64,000 nucleotides of DNA from the NCBI GenBank assembly GCA_949505625.1, contig CATBQD010000008.1:1-64000 (forward strand). The letters are read 5' to 3'. Shown piece by piece: positions 15,036 through 22,938 of the stretch (within the stretch, counting starts at the first letter, position 1; every line of letters starts with the position of its first letter). The notes beneath the pieces are model-generated. The model saw nothing but the letters and a program-made list of their open reading frames with translations, was not told where the DNA came from and did no database searches. The position numbers and the translations under genes were made by a program. This DNA comes from an uncultured Bacilli bacterium. GTDB lineage: Bacteria; Bacillota_I; Bacilli_A; RF39; UBA660.

Positions 15036-15974
15036 TTATGATACTTTTCCACATTTGCTTCCCCAAGACTCAATAAATTTAGAATCTTTATAAATTCTTA
15101 AAATTTCACAATGATTTGAGCATTTTTCACATTCTCTTCCTTTCGTTTCAAATGTAATGTCTGCTACATCTAGACTTCTCATTTTTCCATCCTCGTATTT
15201 ATGTGCTAGCAAGGCAATTCCAATGGCTCCCATCAAATGACTGTTTGGGTCCACAATAATATCTTCCTTTAAAACTTCACTAAAATATTTTGTAACCCCT
15301 TCATTCTTACTCACTCCACCTTGAAACACAATCGGTGGCATTATTTTTTTTCCTTTTCCTACATTGTTTAAATAATTTAACACAACACTTTTACAAAGTC
15401 CTGCAATAATGTCTTCTTTTTTATATCCAACTTGTGCTTTATGAATCAAATCAGACTCTGCGAAAACAGTACAACGTGCCGCTATTTTTACTGGATTTTT
15501 TGAAGTAAGAGCAAGATGTCCAAAGTCTTCTATATCTACTCCTAGTCGTTTGGCTTGACTTGATAAAAAGGAACCAGTTCCTGCTGCACAAAGCGTATTC
15601 ATTGCATAATCTTCTATTAATCCATCTTTTAATAAAATCATTTTAGAATCTTGCCCACCAATTTCTAAGATTGTTCTAACATCTGGATAAAAATGGGTAG
15701 TTCCAATAGCGTGTGCTGTAATTTCATTTTTAACAACATTGGCATCTACCATCAATCCAATCAACTTTCTAGCACTCCCCGTTGTTCCAATTCCATAAAT
15801 TTCTATTTCTTCCTCTAAACTTTCTTTTAGTTGATGTAATAAGTCTTTTACTGCTTTGATTGGATTTCCCTCTGTCCATATATAACTAGAAGTTACAATA
15901 TTATGTTGTTCATCTAATATAACTCCTTTTGTAGAAATAGAGCCAATATCAATTCCTAAATAACCTTTTTTCAA
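15036..15974 (-). CDS. 2-hydroxyacyl-CoA dehydratase activase-like ATPase (BadF/BcrA/HgdC family)
   Basis: Actin-fold ATPase that, in characterised relatives (HgdC), uses ATP to push one electron into a 2-hydroxyacyl-CoA dehydratase. The phosphate-binding loop GIDIGSISTKG is at residues 7-17. The cysteines expected to hold the bridging [4Fe-4S] cluster are in NTLCAAGTGSF and AARCTVF. A further C-terminal CEKCSNHC motif suggests a second cluster or metal site, as in the YjiL subgroup. It begins at TTG and overlaps the stop of the preceding gene by four bases (TTGA), indicating translational coupling. It is the third gene of a three-gene operon with the two dehydratase-like proteins. The physiological substrate is unknown. 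Confidence 0.88.
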   Translation of the reverse strand: MKKGYLGIDIGSISTKGVILDEQHNIVTSSYIWTEGNPIKAVKDLLHQLKESLEEEIEIYGIGTTGSARKLIGLMVDANVVKNEITAHAIGTTHFYPDVRTILEIGGQDSKMILLKDGLIEDYAMNTLCAAGTGSFLSSQAKRLGVDIEDFGHLALTSKNPVKIAARCTVFAESDLIHKAQVGYKKEDIIAGLCKSVVLNYLNNVGKGKKIMPPIVFQGGVSKNEGVTKYFSEVLKEDIIVDPNSHLMGAIGIALLAHKYEDGKMRSLDVADITFETKGRECEKCSNHCEILRIYKDSKFIESWGSKCGKVS

Positions 15975-17059
15975 CGTTTTTTCCTCATTTCTAACATATC
16001 ATAAAAAGCTTCTAATCTGGTTTTAATTCCAACTTCTGATGTGTTTGTATCAAAACTAAAAAATAAAATTGGTACATTATAATCATTACAAACTTTTGTT
16101 AAAATTGGCATTGCTCCAATTTCTGGAGTACAAAAGGAAGATTTGATATGAATAATTCCATCATATCCTTGTTCGCATAGTTCCTTCGCTCTAGCAATGT
16201 TATCCATAGCATCTGCTCCCATTTGGTACGTTACATATTCAGAAATTTCTTTTAAGTATTGTTTTACTTTTTTATGTTTTTGAAATAATAAATATGTGAC
16301 ATTGGTAAATCGCTTGATTTCAAAATTCATAGAAGCTAAAGTTCGCTCTAATTCATAATTAGAATATGGTTCCATCACTGTATAAAGTTCTCCTATGATT
16401 CCAATCTTGAGCGGATTTTCTGGCTTTTGAATTGGAATATTCTCTATTTCTTGCTTGTATTTTTGATATACCTTTTTTAACTCATGATGTGTTTTTACCA
16501 TTTTAAATTTATGAAGCATTTCTGCTTTTACTTTTTCAAAACTTCCTTTTTTTATTTCAAAACCAATATGCTCTCTAATATAATGGTCTATACTATCCAT
16601 ATATTTTAACATTCGTTTTGTAATACTCCCATAATATAAAACTTTTAAAATGGAAAACTTAGGGTCAATTTCCTTCATCATCCGATAGATTCTTTTAAAG
16701 TCTGTTTTCCCAGCTGTTACCAAGTTATAGAATCTGCATTCATATCCTAAATCCTTGATAATCTGTTCTTGCAGTTCTGCATAATATCCATACCTACATC
16801 CCCCTCCTGCTTGAATTAATATTTTGGCACCACTATCAAGCCCTTCTATTAAAGTTCCCAATGTATATTTAAATGGAGTACAAACAAATTCTGGACTATA
16901 CTTAGAACCTATTTCAATTGTTTTAGAGGTAATTGGTTTTGGTTTTATAATCTTATTGTGAATGATATGAGAAAGTAGAAAGTGAGCTGGTACTGCATAA
17001 TCTCCCATAATAGGAAATACAACACTATCTAACTGTTTTTTTATTTTCAAGGATATCAA
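15971..17059 (-). CDS. 2-hydroxyacyl-CoA dehydratase-like protein (COG3581/YjiM-HgdB type)
   Basis: Related to the dehydratase subunit half of the large 'acyl-CoA dehydratase activase-related' proteins. FPIMGDYAVPAHFL matches the family's start, and cysteines in EFVCTPFKYTLG, GGGCRYGYYAE and KSSFCTPEIGAMP are placed to bind an Fe-S cluster. The ORF track start at 17059 is a TTG inside the previous gene with no clear ribosome site; TTG at 17050 or ATG at 17008 are alternatives, and translation is probably coupled to the upstream gene, whose stop is at 17025. Function is inferred from family only; 2-hydroxyacyl-CoA dehydration itself is not proven for this subgroup. Confidence 0.82.
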   Translation of the reverse strand: MISLKIKKQLDSVVFPIMGDYAVPAHFLLSHIIHNKIIKPKPITSKTIEIGSKYSPEFVCTPFKYTLGTLIEGLDSGAKILIQAGGGCRYGYYAELQEQIIKDLGYECRFYNLVTAGKTDFKRIYRMMKEIDPKFSILKVLYYGSITKRMLKYMDSIDHYIREHIGFEIKKGSFEKVKAEMLHKFKMVKTHHELKKVYQKYKQEIENIPIQKPENPLKIGIIGELYTVMEPYSNYELERTLASMNFEIKRFTNVTYLLFQKHKKVKQYLKEISEYVTYQMGADAMDNIARAKELCEQGYDGIIHIKSSFCTPEIGAMPILTKVCNDYNVPILFFSFDTNTSEVGIKTRLEAFYDMLEMRKKR

Positions 17060-17936
17060 TAAAGCTTTCTAAACGAGTTTCCATTCCAGCACTCCCACTT
17101 TCTTCATCAATAATCAAATTTAAATACGGAATATTAATCTTTCTCATAATCAATTCATTGACTAGACTATCAGGTCCACAAGGGAAAGATGATAAAAATA
17201 ATATGCCATCTATATTATCTTTTATTACTGGTATTGTTTCTATCAATTCTTTGTTATATTTCCAATATAAATTTGGAGAAAGTGATTCTTCTGAATTTCG
17301 ATTTTCATTAAGAGTTATCATTTCTCCGTCGATTGCAGTTACATTTAAATCGGACAATATTTTTTTTATGGAATTCCCTATAAAAGTATCTTCAAAATTA
17401 TATGGATGACTAATAATAAGCAATTTGATATTTGTCATATTTAATTTTTTTAATTCTTGTATTCTTTGTTTCTTTCGCATTTTTATGAATTTTTCTATAC
17501 TATGAAAATAAGCAATTTTGGATTGTTCTTTTCCTTTTCCTAAGGATATTCCTAAATGAATAAAACCTTCTAATTCTGATTTTTTATGAGCAACATCCAC
17601 ATTATATGTTAATAAAGGAGTTTTAAAAAGGTTTGACACAATATCATAAAGACTTAAGAAATTGGTACAAGTCTGTTCAAATGTCCCATAGTTGTCAATT
17701 CTAGGAACTAATATATAATCACATTTTTCTTCTAAATAGTGAATATGACCTAAATAAAGCTTTAATGAAAGACACATTTCATCATTCGCAAGTTTGCAGC
17801 CTTGTTCTAATATATCTTTTGTTGTATTGGGACTAATCACAACTTCACATCCTAATTCTTCTAAAAAGGCTTTCCACATTGTTCCATAATAATAATAGTG
17901 TAAGGCTTTTGGTATTCCTATTTTTATCTTGTCCAT
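17025..17936 (-). CDS. DUF2229 / COG3580-type dehydratase-related protein
   Basis: About 303 residues. KIGIPKALHYYYYGTMWKAF and VVISPNTTKDILEQG are the hallmark opening of DUF2229, normally one module of a fused activase-dehydratase protein of more than 1,000 residues in Clostridia. Conserved cysteines occur in NDEMCLSLKLYLGH and SSFPCGPDSL. The ORF track reaches back to 18089, but the ATG at 17936 has AGGTGA in front and matches the family's N terminus; the upstream part is only the intergenic region. It is the first gene of the operon, and a TATAAT box lies about 15-20 bases before the start, giving a very short leader. It is divergent from the DUF1540 gene. Confidence 0.85.
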   Translation of the reverse strand: MDKIKIGIPKALHYYYYGTMWKAFLEELGCEVVISPNTTKDILEQGCKLANDEMCLSLKLYLGHIHYLEEKCDYILVPRIDNYGTFEQTCTNFLSLYDIVSNLFKTPLLTYNVDVAHKKSELEGFIHLGISLGKGKEQSKIAYFHSIEKFIKMRKKQRIQELKKLNMTNIKLLIISHPYNFEDTFIGNSIKKILSDLNVTAIDGEMITLNENRNSEESLSPNLYWKYNKELIETIPVIKDNIDGILFLSSFPCGPDSLVNELIMRKINIPYLNLIIDEESGSAGMETRLESFIDILENKKTVR

Positions 17937-18023
17937 CTTATCACCTAAAGCATTATATGTTGTATTCTTTTCTTTATGAATAATAATTCCACAATGACAC
18001 ATATTAAAAATGGTGATAAAAAA

Positions 18024-18185
18024 ATGGAAAAACAAACAATTCATTGTTCTGTTCATAATTGTGATTTTTGTAATGAGCAAGAGAATCACTGTGAACTAGA
18101 AGAAATTAAAGTATGTAACTGTTCTAATGACCATGAAAAAGAAGCGACTATGTGTGACAGTTTCAAAGAAAAAGAAAACAGATAA
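18024..18185 (+). CDS. Small Cys-rich DUF1540 protein
   Basis: A 53-residue protein, one of three plus-strand genes. The core CSVHNCDFCNEQENHC...VCNC...MCDSF has the regular cysteine spacing of DUF1540, a family presumed to bind a metal ion (seen pattern; metal binding is inferred). The ORF track starts 16 codons earlier, but GGTGAT sits seven bases before the ATG at 18024, which fits the family length. It is transcribed divergently from the dehydratase-like operon across an 87-bp gap and is followed by a terminator. Confidence 0.82.
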   Translation: MEKQTIHCSVHNCDFCNEQENHCELEEIKVCNCSNDHEKEATMCDSFKEKENR

Positions 18186-18241: not shown

Positions 18242-18267
18242 AACTCTGAAATGGAGTGGATAAGTAT

Positions 18268-19521
18268 ATGCTCAAAATGAAACAATTAACACCAGCAGAA
18301 TTTGAGAATTTTACAAATACTTTTAATATACATTCTTTATATCAAACAGTAGAATATGCGAATGTGATGGAGCGTCAAGGATTAGGCACTTTATTTGTTG
18401 GTCTAATAGATGGAGATAATATTGTAGCAGCTTCTTTAATTATTGTTGAAAAAAGTGATGGTTTCAACTATGCTTATGCTCCTAGAGGTTTTTTAATCAA
18501 TTATAATAATTATAGTTTATTGAAAAAATTTACATCTCTTCTAAAAAAATTCCTTGGAAAAAGAGATATCATTGCGGTAAAGTTAAATCCTCTTATCATT
18601 AAAGAAATACATGATAAAGATAATCATTTAAAAGAAAGTAATGATTATTTTGGAAAAGTTTATAATGATTTAAAAAGGCTTGGATACTACCATTTAGGAT
18701 ATAATCATTTTTTTGAAGCTTTCAAACCTAGATTTGAAGCAATTCTAAATTTAGATTTCCCTTATTATCAACTATTTAGCGGAATGAGTAAAGGATATAG
18801 AACAAAAATTAGAAGTGCAGAGAAAAATGGCATGAAAGTTCATAAAGGAAACATCAATAATTTAGATTATTTATATTTACAAACAAAAGAAAAATATCCA
18901 AGAGATTTAAAATTTTTTCAAGATGTTTATCAAGTATTTGGAGCTACAAGTAAAGTAGAATTTTATTATGTCAAACTGGATACTACATATTTTCTTACAA
19001 AGACCCAAGAAGCTTATGCATTAGCAGAACAAAGAAGTACAGAGATAAATCAACAAGTTCTAGCCAATTTAGGAGAAAATAATGCGAAATTGGTTGATCT
19101 TAAAATTGTTTGTGATAATGAAGCAAACTTCTATAAAAATGAACTTATCACAGCTACAAATTTACTTCGTGATTTTCCAACTGGAGCAATACTGGCTTCT
19201 ACCATGATTATTAAGAATAAGGAGGAGATTTTTCTATTCATGGATGGATTTGATCCCAATTATAAACACTTTAATGCCAAACACTTATTACTTTGGAAAT
19301 TAATCGAGAAATTTTCTCAGGAAGGATTTAAAAGATTTAATTTAGGAGGCGTTACAAATCCACTCTTAGAAAAAAATTCTTATAAAGGTTTAAACAATTT
19401 TAAGAAAAATTTCGGTGCTGATATTTATGAATACGTTGGAGATTTAGAGCTCATCACTAACAAAACACTTTATTTTATGTATCGCAATGCAGCACCAATC
19501 AGAAACATGTTAAAACGATAA
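18268..19521 (+). CDS. FemX/FemAB family peptidyltransferase (cell-wall interpeptide bridge)
   Basis: Adds an amino acid from aminoacyl-tRNA to the lysine side chain of lipid II or its precursor, building the peptidoglycan cross-bridge. The double GNAT-like fold is visible: the first domain begins with NIHSLYQTVEYANVMERQG and YAPRGFLINY, the second has PTGAILASTMII and ends with FNLGGVTNP and LNNFKKNFGADIYEYVGDLEL, all typical of FemABX. A helical insertion (about residues 240-300: AEQRSTEINQQV...) corresponds to the coiled-coil arm of FemA. At about 417 residues it is full length. GTG at 18256 overlaps the GGAG ribosome site, so ATG 18268 is preferred. Which residue it adds cannot be told. 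It is convergent with the LTA-synthase-like gene. Confidence 0.92.
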   Translation: MLKMKQLTPAEFENFTNTFNIHSLYQTVEYANVMERQGLGTLFVGLIDGDNIVAASLIIVEKSDGFNYAYAPRGFLINYNNYSLLKKFTSLLKKFLGKRDIIAVKLNPLIIKEIHDKDNHLKESNDYFGKVYNDLKRLGYYHLGYNHFFEAFKPRFEAILNLDFPYYQLFSGMSKGYRTKIRSAEKNGMKVHKGNINNLDYLYLQTKEKYPRDLKFFQDVYQVFGATSKVEFYYVKLDTTYFLTKTQEAYALAEQRSTEINQQVLANLGENNAKLVDLKIVCDNEANFYKNELITATNLLRDFPTGAILASTMIIKNKEEIFLFMDGFDPNYKHFNAKHLLLWKLIEKFSQEGFKRFNLGGVTNPLLEKNSYKGLNNFKKNFGADIYEYVGDLELITNKTLYFMYRNAAPIRNMLKR

Positions 19522-19524
19522 AAA

Positions 19525-19556
19525 CAGTTCAAAATGAACTGCTTTTATTTTTTAAT
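19525..19556. terminator. Bidirectional terminator between the FemX-like and LTA-synthase-like genes
   Basis: CAGTTCA-AAA-TGAACTG with A/T runs on both flanks, placed between two converging genes. Confidence 0.85.
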
Positions 19557-21911
19557 ATGTTTTAACCAATAATATTCTACATTATAAAATTCGTTTAACT
19601 TTCTTTTTCCGTTTGCTGATAATGCTACCCCTAAAGTTTCTTCTTTATACCAAGGTTCATTAATTACACTAAGTTCTTTTTTTAAATCTATTAAATATTG
19701 AAGATAGGAATCCCCTTTCCACCCTAATATTTCAAACAATTCTGGCATTAAAAACATTGGACTAATTGTTGGCGCTTCTCCACGAAATTCACTTCCAGTT
19801 ATATTCTTTGCTGTTTTATTTGCCCATATAAAATATGGAACTCCATAATAATTCATAAAACCATTTTCTGTTGCTGTATTCATGTCAATTCCCATTTGTT
19901 GATATCCAACATTGTCGCTTCCTAAAAATGGATTATGATCAGAAAATATGAGTATTACAACTGGTTCTTCCTGCTCATTAAAATAGTCAATTAAGCTTTT
20001 TATGGCATAATTAGTCCCTTCTATTCCGTGTAAATAATTATTAATCATGTTATAAGTTTCATCATCCATTGCATCTGTTCTTGTTAAATATTCATCATCA
20101 TAAATCTTTTCAGTAGTATATGGCCCATGATTTTGATAAGTAACTGAAAAATGAAAATAGGATTGTTCGTTCTCCATTGCTTGCTCATAACCGCCCTTAA
20201 TATATTCAAAAAATTCACTATCACTTAAAAATTGAGTTTGGATTTTTGCAAAACGATTTTCATAGTAATCAAAATTTTTAAAGCCAAGAATCTCATCAAC
20301 ATTCCGTCTATTATAAAACCATCCGTAAATTGGATGCATCGCCTCAGTATAGTAAATCTCATCTGAAAAATAGTTTATAAAAGAATTGGTAGGACGTCGA
20401 AAATCAGGTATATTATAATACCCTGTTAAATAACTTCGTTCAGTATTAACAGTTCCTCCTCCAAAAACATTAGATATAATTCTTCCAGAATATGAATTTT
20501 CTTGAATTTCATGAAATTCTTTATAGATGTCTTTATTTAATGATACTGATTCAAAAATAGAAAGGTCTTGATAAGCTTCTAACATTATAGAAATAATATT
20601 GATCTGTTTTCCATTTTCATAAGTAGGTATACCCTCTATCTCATACTTGGAAAGAATTTTCTCTACTTTTTTTTCATCATAATTATCTGGTTTTTTTAAT
20701 ACTGAAACTTTTGAACTATGCAAAAATGGATAAATAAAACCTCGAACTTGGTACTGTTGTGTATATGACCAAATATTAATATTTGTTTTATCCCCTGTTC
20801 TTTCATATAATTTTTCATTATAATAAATTGGTTTAAATAAAACGATTGATCCTATAATCAACAGAATTCCAAACATAATTCTTTTTTTATATATCAATTT
20901 CCTTTTTGGCTCATATAAAAATAAAATTATTATAATAAGAAAAGAACATATGATTAAAATAACTGTTGATAAAGAGAAATTTAAGTCATATCTCTTTGTC
21001 ATTTCTAATGATTCGTTAATAAGCCCTAAATCAGAGAAAATAAAAGGATCATCTCGATAAACTAATTTAGTTCTATTTACAAATCCCATTATAAAAATTA
21101 AAAAATTTGTAACTCCAAAACTTATCCATAACCTATTTGTTAACAAATATAATAACAATAATATTATCAATATCGGTAATCCATTTAGTATAACCAAATC
21201 AAATTGCTTCCAATACATTCTAAATGTTGAAATCTCGCTTACTTTCATAGAGAAATTAAAATTAATTGCTAAAATCCAAATTAACAATAATCCAATTATC
21301 ACTATCAAAAATAATTGTTTTCTTTTTTTATTTTCTAATCTTTTCTTAGTAAATGGCAAGATTTTTCTCAAACTTCGATAAATATAAGAATCTTCTGCTA
21401 AAGCAAATAATTCTGCATCAGATTTTCTATAACCATAAAATGTTTCTATATTAGATTTTTTTAAATTTTCTAATAACTGTTTTTTTCTATACCCAGCTAC
21501 CATAATCTTACCATTTAGATTTGAACTTTCTAAATTAAAATCTGTTGCACATATATTATTTATTTTATATTCCGTCAATATAGGCGCTATCAAATCAATT
21601 GGAAGTGCACTAATAATCCAAGAATCCGATGTAATTCTTGATAGAAAATCTTGATTTAATTTATAATAATGGGTCTTCCAAAATTGATTAATTATATTTT
21701 TTATATCTTTCATCTCTCGTAGAAAAGAAAAATATCGAATATAGTGTTGTTCCAATGTAATTTTATTTATACTAAATAAAAATACATAAAAAATATGAAT
21801 AAAAATAAATTTAAATAATCTTTTTTCTTGCTTTAAACAAAATATAAAAAGATCTTGTCCTAAATTACCTTTATAAATTATTTTCTCAAATTCATAAACT
21901 TTACATTTCAT
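19545..21911 (-). CDS. LTA synthase-like sulfatase-family membrane enzyme with N-terminal degenerate HAD domain
   Basis: The C-terminal ~380 residues are a sulfatase/alkaline phosphatase-superfamily domain of the lipoteichoic acid synthase type: GGGTVNTERSYLTG carries the catalytic Thr and FSDHNPFLGSD the metal-binding Asp-His. By family it would transfer or hydrolyse phosphoglycerol groups outside the membrane. About five membrane helices lie at residues 200-355. The first ~195 residues resemble a HAD-type phosphatase, but the nucleophile motif DxD(K)T is replaced by EFEKII (residues 7-12) and the GD-SD motif by GYRKSD, so this domain should be inactive. The start has AAGGTGA upstream, so the HAD part belongs to the protein. 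At 788 residues it is longer than normal LtaS (~620-650). Confidence 0.87.
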   Translation of the reverse strand: MKCKVYEFEKIIYKGNLGQDLFIFCLKQEKRLFKFIFIHIFYVFLFSINKITLEQHYIRYFSFLREMKDIKNIINQFWKTHYYKLNQDFLSRITSDSWIISALPIDLIAPILTEYKINNICATDFNLESSNLNGKIMVAGYRKKQLLENLKKSNIETFYGYRKSDAELFALAEDSYIYRSLRKILPFTKKRLENKKRKQLFLIVIIGLLLIWILAINFNFSMKVSEISTFRMYWKQFDLVILNGLPILIILLLLYLLTNRLWISFGVTNFLIFIMGFVNRTKLVYRDDPFIFSDLGLINESLEMTKRYDLNFSLSTVILIICSFLIIIILFLYEPKRKLIYKKRIMFGILLIIGSIVLFKPIYYNEKLYERTGDKTNINIWSYTQQYQVRGFIYPFLHSSKVSVLKKPDNYDEKKVEKILSKYEIEGIPTYENGKQINIISIMLEAYQDLSIFESVSLNKDIYKEFHEIQENSYSGRIISNVFGGGTVNTERSYLTGYYNIPDFRRPTNSFINYFSDEIYYTEAMHPIYGWFYNRRNVDEILGFKNFDYYENRFAKIQTQFLSDSEFFEYIKGGYEQAMENEQSYFHFSVTYQNHGPYTTEKIYDDEYLTRTDAMDDETYNMINNYLHGIEGTNYAIKSLIDYFNEQEEPVVILIFSDHNPFLGSDNVGYQQMGIDMNTATENGFMNYYGVPYFIWANKTAKNITGSEFRGEAPTISPMFLMPELFEILGWKGDSYLQYLIDLKKELSVINEPWYKEETLGVALSANGKRKLNEFYNVEYYWLKHIKK

Positions 21912-21975
21912 AATTTCACCTTAGTATAAGGATACAGAAAAAGAAAAAAAAATGCAATGATTTCTTTTTCTTTTA

Positions 21976-22938
21976 TTATATTTTCCACATTTTTTTTGTT
22001 TTTTCTACTGCTTCTTTTCTCTGTTCCTCTTTAATTATAGGATCACTTAATTCAATTATATTTTTTACTAATAAAGTCGCATACAAATATCCTTCATAAA
22101 TAAGTGGATCTGGATTTTGTAGTCCTTCTACAGCTCTTTCATATACCAACCTTAAATAATCTTGCTCTAATAGTACTTCTAGAGTTGATCTCAATTGAGC
22201 CTTCTGTGGTAATAATCCATATCTTAATACAACACCAGAATTAACAGTCCAAGCGTTTCTTTTTTTGAACTCTGCTATCATTATAGGTAGATTATCTGCA
22301 AATCGTTCCCATGCTTCATTTGTTATGAAGTCCTGTTCTTTTTCGGATATTACAGGAACCCAGTCTCGATTTACAATATTTTGTAGTAGTTCAAAATTAT
22401 CTGCTTCTACAACTAATTTTATTTTTGCGGCAATCAAATAATTTTTTAGATGCTCTCTTCTACTTATTTCTTCCATACTATATTCTTTAAAAATCGGAGG
22501 TAATTTAGATAAATCTAAAGCATATCTAGAATCATATATCTCAGTGTGATTTCCAACTACTGACTTTAAAATTGAAATATAATTGTCCAAACCAAAATAT
22601 CTTGATAATTCATCATGCAATAATAATTCTCCAAGTCTTCCATGGTCCTTAATCCCGTATTTTTCTTCTAATTCTGCATCTTTTAAACTTCCTGTCAATA
22701 GATATTGGGCAAATCTACCAATGTCATGAAATAGACCATCTACTGCAGCACTCTCTTCAAAACTTTCATGGAATAATCCTGAGCCACTAGTTATTCTAGG
22801 AACAGACTCTGACATGGAAATGCCATGCTTAATTTTTAATTTTACACTGTTATCAGCCTTTCCATACATTCTTTCTATATTTCCTATTTGTACCTTTCCA
22901 TACTTTGTATAAAGCGTTCTTAATCTTTGAATTTCCAT
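21976..22938 (-). CDS. HD-domain metal-dependent phosphohydrolase
   Basis: Cytoplasmic 320-residue protein. The HD signature GLFHDIGRF (His71-Asp72) is preceded by His38 (KIKHGISMSE), and further His/Asp residues follow (KDHGRLGELLLHDE, VVGNHTEIYDSRY, EADNFELL), together making a likely bimetallic phosphohydrolase site. The substrate (nucleotide, cyclic dinucleotide or RNA end) is not identifiable; it lacks the extra motifs of RelA, GdpP or YpgQ types that I could name. GGGAGGG lies before the start. It sits between the tuf terminator and the LTA-like gene and is probably a single gene. Confidence 0.82.
   Translation of the reverse strand: MEIQRLRTLYTKYGKVQIGNIERMYGKADNSVKLKIKHGISMSESVPRITSGSGLFHESFEESAAVDGLFHDIGRFAQYLLTGSLKDAELEEKYGIKDHGRLGELLLHDELSRYFGLDNYISILKSVVGNHTEIYDSRYALDLSKLPPIFKEYSMEEISRREHLKNYLIAAKIKLVVEADNFELLQNIVNRDWVPVISEKEQDFITNEAWERFADNLPIMIAEFKKRNAWTVNSGVVLRYGLLPQKAQLRSTLEVLLEQDYLRLVYERAVEGLQNPDPLIYEGYLYATLLVKNIIELSDPIIKEEQRKEAVEKTKKMWKI

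Follow-up and report, generated by a model that had tools for sequence, protein, structure and literature searches.

A catalytically dead HAD-IB domain fused to a GacH-like candidate glycerol-phosphate transferase in an uncultured Bacilli bacterium

GacH, the glycerol-phosphate (GroP) transferase of the group A carbohydrate of Streptococcus pyogenes, is reported to cleave phosphatidylglycerol and attach GroP to GlcNAc side chains (PMC12282279). The protein is described as a transmembrane domain (amino acids 1-395) and a catalytic domain (444-822) (PMC12282279), with no HAD domain. In lipoteichoic acid (LTA) synthase, LtaS, the catalytic residue is a Thr (PMC4192460). Phosphoribose-phosphatase (PRP) domains, which belong to the HAD proteins, act with UbiA-type phosphoribosyltransferases; the published PRPs, among them that of Citrobacter youngae ORF15, are catalytic and are joined to the transferase (PMC11127046).

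We analysed a stretch of 64,000 nucleotides (the window) from contig CATBQD010000008.1 of an uncultured Bacilli bacterium. On its minus strand, positions 19545..21911 encode a protein of 788 amino acids in which a dead HAD-IB domain is followed by about five transmembrane helices and a sulfatase-fold ectodomain of the GacH/LtaS type. This fusion protein is real and rare. Searches of the open-access literature gave no paper that brings together LTA synthase, haloacid dehalogenase and a fusion of the two; a search for GtrA, HAD and polyprenyl fusion yielded one paper, which, judged by its title and abstract, concerns GtcA in LTA glycosylation.

The fusion gene and its transferase ectodomain

A single frame spans the whole ORF (21911..19545, minus strand). 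The frame is closed by a TAA four codons before the ATG, which is also preceded by AAGGTGA, a stretch resembling a ribosome binding site (21916..21922, minus); both agree with the clear start that a preliminary description of this DNA had noted. Its further claim that the fusion is real is borne out by a survey of genus, family, class and phylum samples, which contain full-length fusions in five genomes of two families. These are the present genome (G000), a second genome of the same genus (G003) with an orthologue that is 61% identical, and three genomes of family f19 (G623, G806 and G810) with orthologues that are 37-40% identical. A sequencing or assembly artefact is rejected as the source of the fusion by this recurrence. 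A search for related loci with the full fusion protein as query gave no matches.

The gene is a single-gene insertion, its insertion site spanning positions 19522..21975, between a convergent pair formed by a FemAB gene (18256-19521) and an HD gene (21976-22938). In all five of the other genus genomes these two flanking genes adjoin each other, separated by approximately 25-35 bp. The fusion gene has a G+C content of 25.2%, compared with 29.7% for the window, and the G003 orthologue has a different location, where a large polysaccharide cluster ends. The gene was likely gained horizontally in this genome, where it stands alone, outside any sugar cluster. Polysaccharide clusters are the setting of two of the five fused orthologues (G003 and G810) and of a close homologue, in G148, that is not fused. 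On the far side of FemAB, the window carries an ordinary cluster of the CoA enzyme activase/DUF2229 type (15036-18089), and similar genes are present in G003 (L160:13-2900).

The pseudo-HAD domain comprises residues 1-190 (21342..21911, minus) and is predicted to be cytosolic. It is followed by a membrane part, residues 200-363 (20823..21314, minus), in which hydropathy indicates about five hydrophobic helices. Helices are also present there in a full-length AlphaFold model, although this model has low confidence (pLDDT 58.9) and is uninformative past the HAD domain, its alignment having consisted of HAD rows alone. The ectodomain, residues 438-730 (19722..20600, minus), matches the Sulfatase family (PF00884) with 101.6 bits, and its position after some five N-terminal hydrophobic segments is the one that the GacH/LtaS type requires.

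The only PDB sequence matches to the ectodomain at E <= 0.001 are GacH entries (5wcx, 6dgm and 5u9z), with a best E of 3.6e-12. As in GacH, an N-terminal membrane part precedes an extracellular catalytic domain, and the Thr, His and Asp-His motifs align. The preliminary description had stated that the sulfatase domain keeps its Thr and Asp-His. These correspond to T487, the predicted catalytic threonine (20451..20453, minus), and to D658-H659, predicted metal ligands (19935..19940, minus), and E445, H526, R535 and H595 likewise align with the GacH/LtaS-type family. The ectodomain therefore looks catalytically intact. The earlier label of LTA synthase-like enzyme has fared less well and is probably wrong. 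The ectodomain appears to share its sulfatase fold and Thr/metal chemistry with LtaS, but it is nearer to GacH. In addition, a separate gene resembling canonical LtaS (L071), only weakly similar to the fusion protein (E 1.5e-5), is present in this genome and conserved in the genus. We therefore reject the fusion protein as the LTA synthase of this genome and prefer to read the ectodomain as a glycan-decorating GroP transferase, a reading with which the polysaccharide-cluster setting of two fused orthologues and of the G148 homologue agrees.

The HAD-IB domain and its active relatives

The identification of the N-terminus as a HAD domain, proposed earlier for the first ~195 residues, is secure. 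Residues 1-195 match HAD relatives from other genomes in BLAST searches with E values down to 3e-24. An AlphaFold2 model of these residues, computed from 80 alignment rows, has a pLDDT of 93.2 and a pTM of 0.87, and its predicted fold contains a Rossmann-like HAD core and a helical cap. Foldseek places the model among HAD-IB/SerB phosphatases (best E 3.9e-6), the best PDB matches being 3fvv (TMq up to 0.72) and HAD-IB structures of the phosphoserine-phosphatase type. Even the weakest N-termini of the orthologues score 23.6-27 bits (23.6 for G810), compared with at most 9.8 bits for shuffled sequences, against a family profile that includes the rows of the window protein and G003. Chance resemblance to HAD proteins is rejected by the BLAST matches, the fold prediction and the shuffled-sequence scores. 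The HAD relatives match PF12710 well above the cut-off, whereas the window protein has no match to this Pfam model and matches TIGR01490 only weakly (E 0.0018), as expected of a decayed member of the family.

The decay is evident at the catalytic positions. Seven of these (D7, D9, T11, S101, K142, D161 and D165) were compared in alignment A2, whose rows were gathered by similarity searches. They read DDTSKDD in 33 of 38 aligned rows and DDTTKDD in two, whereas EEISRYD stands in both the window protein and the orthologue from G003. In motif I, for which DxDx[TV] is usual, E7-F8-E9 replaces D-F-D (21885..21893, minus), eliminating both the nucleophile and the acid/base, and residue 11 is Ile. 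The motif II Ser is kept as S101 (21609..21611, minus) in both proteins. The motif III Lys is replaced by R142 (21486..21488, minus), with K143 adjacent to it, and in motif IV (21417..21431, minus) the first Asp is Y161 while the second, D165, is retained. The preliminary description had recognized the change of DxD to ExE and of another catalytic Asp to Tyr, and to these the alignment adds the loss of T11 and K142. In a HAD enzyme, exchange of the nucleophilic Asp combined with loss of K142, T11 and D161 would be expected to abolish normal catalysis. Because both DxD aspartates, the motif III Lys and one motif IV Asp are missing, we infer that the domain cannot act as a normal HAD phosphatase.

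All five fused HAD domains are dead, and intact motifs occur only in relatives with other architectures; as the predicted fold is HAD, the observation withstands both of the refutation tests posed in the preliminary description. These active relatives stand alone, are fused to GtrA (PF04138), or are fused to large polytopic membrane proteins, one of which has a DUF6080 match. One intact HAD-GtrA fusion is encoded in the present genome (L001:1027-2010, minus strand, G000:C5), where it reads DDTSKDD and adjoins genes for a UDP-GlcNAc 2-epimerase and a WecG/TagA-family protein. The window protein resembles it in carrying an N-terminal domain of the same HAD family on a membrane protein of surface-glycan assembly, but differs in its degenerate residues and in having a sulfatase domain instead of GtrA. 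A second dead HAD occurs in a genome of another family (G055; L026:1306-2256, minus strand), in a protein that has the length of a GtrA fusion and no Pfam match. Its seven positions read TSVSRYE; motif I is TFSKV, the motif IV position holds Tyr, and because it has no YKGN, a signature of the fused proteins considered below, it probably decayed independently.

The genomic neighbourhood of the active relatives offers a clue to their substrate. Of 80 loci retrieved through HAD similarity, 34 contain a UbiA gene, which in 26 of the 80 lies directly upstream on the same strand. Such an arrangement, with the HAD-IB gene right after a gene for a UbiA phosphoribosyltransferase-like protein, is found among loci L080-L159, for instance at L100:3031-4975 and L147:128-3293. 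The best models for two UbiA proteins that we scanned are those for decaprenyl-phosphate phosphoribosyltransferase, at scores below the cut-offs. The active relatives resemble PRP domains such as ORF15 in their HAD fold and helical cap, and may also resemble them in being associated with a polyprenyl phosphoribosyltransferase, which here takes the form of gene neighbourhood (PMC11127046). Taken with these published systems, the UbiA neighbourhood suggests that the active family probably consists of lipid-linked phosphosugar phosphatases, and the members that follow UbiA are likely pentofuranose-lipid phosphatases. The substrate may vary, since in four genus genomes, including this one, HAD-GtrA is present and UbiA was not detected. 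The ancestor of the dead domain was probably a lipid-linked-phosphosugar phosphatase as well; in contrast to the catalytic PRPs, the window domain is dead and is joined to a GroP-type transferase.

History of the fusion and constraint on the dead domain

The fused proteins share a derived signature, Y13-K14-G15-N16 (21864..21875, minus), where YDGD is usual. YKGN is common to four of the five fused orthologues, while the active relatives mostly have YDGD. N16 is absent from every active row of A2 and likewise from those of a further alignment, A3, whose sequences were selected by a YDFD pattern and so have an intact motif I by construction. A tree of ectodomains unites the five fused proteins with the G148 homologue, which is not fused, in one clade (100/100) whose inner forks are less certain. 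The shared signature, its absence from active rows and the ectodomain grouping together favour a single ancient fusion whose HAD part was by then inactive. One fusion event followed by loss in G148 is likewise favoured, but not proved.

The dead domain is decayed to different degrees in the fused orthologues. Motif I has become LFTKC or LFSKC in G623 and G806, leaving no acidic residue at the DxD positions, and the N-terminus of G810 is more decayed still. In the f19 orthologues S101 aligns with Cys or Ala, and the motif IV pair is not conserved. By visual comparison, the most degenerate orthologue has a hydrophobic stretch similar to one in the cap region of the window protein (residues 29-50; 21762..21827, minus), which is helical in the model. 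The HAD part is diverging much faster than the ectodomain: between the window protein and that of G623, identities amount to 40/171 in the former and 176/380 in the latter. In one close pair, G623 and G806, the HAD domain is nevertheless under purifying selection, with dN/dS of approximately 0.17 (NG86) or 0.30 (YN00). The comparison of the window with G003 was left out, synonymous change there being near saturation.

Possible roles of the dead domain

The explanation that we tentatively favour is that the protein is a membrane-bound, GacH-like GroP transferase and that its cytosolic N-terminus, a dead HAD-IB phosphatase, is kept as a non-catalytic docking or stability module. Judging from family and conserved residues, the ectodomain would take glycerol phosphate from phosphatidylglycerol onto its Thr outside the cell and would then hand it on to a polysaccharide that is either part of the wall or secreted. 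The active relatives, which probably dephosphorylate polyprenyl-linked phosphosugars, are joined to flippases and membrane enzymes that would use those lipids, or are encoded next to them. Having lost catalysis, the domain would most likely keep a membrane-facing or partner-binding surface and might thereby keep the transferase close to the machinery of glycan assembly. Searches of the five fused genomes found UbiA in G003 alone and not in the other four (this one, G623, G806 and G810), and no active HAD of the same family was found in G623, G806 or G810; the docking partner therefore cannot be either of these proteins everywhere. The unfused G148 homologue indicates that close relatives can do without the HAD domain.

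This last protein, together with the progressive decay of the domain, makes a serious rival of a second explanation, in our estimation an unlikely one, by which the HAD part is left over from an old fusion and decays as a passenger, tolerated because it is harmless. The decay deepens from this genome and G003, through G623 and G806, to G810, yet approximately 150-190 residues remain in frame in all five genomes. Faster divergence than in the ectodomain would suit a passenger, but the dN/dS of the HAD part in G623 and G806 is well below 1. An unfused relative inside the fused clade is compatible with loss of a dispensable segment, whereas a confidently predicted fold that has outlasted catalysis is harder to reconcile with mere tolerance.

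It was suggested in the preliminary description that the HAD part may sense a cytosolic phospho-metabolite and control the synthesis of LTA or glycerophosphate polymers outside the membrane; on this view, ligand binding in the dead pocket would regulate the external transferase allosterically, through the membrane. The part of this proposal that stands is the joining of a dead HAD to a GroP-type transferase; sensing itself now seems improbable. A modified anion pocket is conceivable in the window protein, where the fold is intact, S101 and D165 are kept and K143 lies beside R142, and the G003 orthologue is in the same dead state. With the changes at S101 and motif IV in the f19 orthologues, however, the fused clade as a whole has no conserved pocket, and UbiA, the maker of the predicted ancestral substrate, is the protein that four of the five fused genomes appear to lack in our searches. 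Weak or altered phosphatase activity at the ExE site is very improbable: acidic residues at both DxD positions might still bind metal, with S101 and D165 kept, but the loss of the nucleophile and of three further catalytic residues would be expected to abolish normal catalysis, and acidic residues are absent from these positions in G623 and G806.

Retention of dead phosphatases as regulators or scaffolds is documented best for eukaryotes. If the docking and stability reading is true, the fusion protein would provide a bacterial case of a dead phosphatase in a membrane-spanning surface-glycan enzyme. A broader and more speculative view, which we consider doubtful at present, is that the HAD-IB family recurs as a cytosolic module in the extracytoplasmic decoration of glycans in Bacillota-type bacteria, and that in this clade it has become a pseudoenzyme that would couple an outer-face GroP transferase to inner-face assembly of lipid-linked sugars. 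For the active family, our hypothesis is that a HAD beside UbiA, whether standing alone or fused to GtrA or a membrane enzyme, provides the phosphatase step of pentofuranose decoration in bacteria of the Gram-positive type. This would extend the systems described in PMC11127046.
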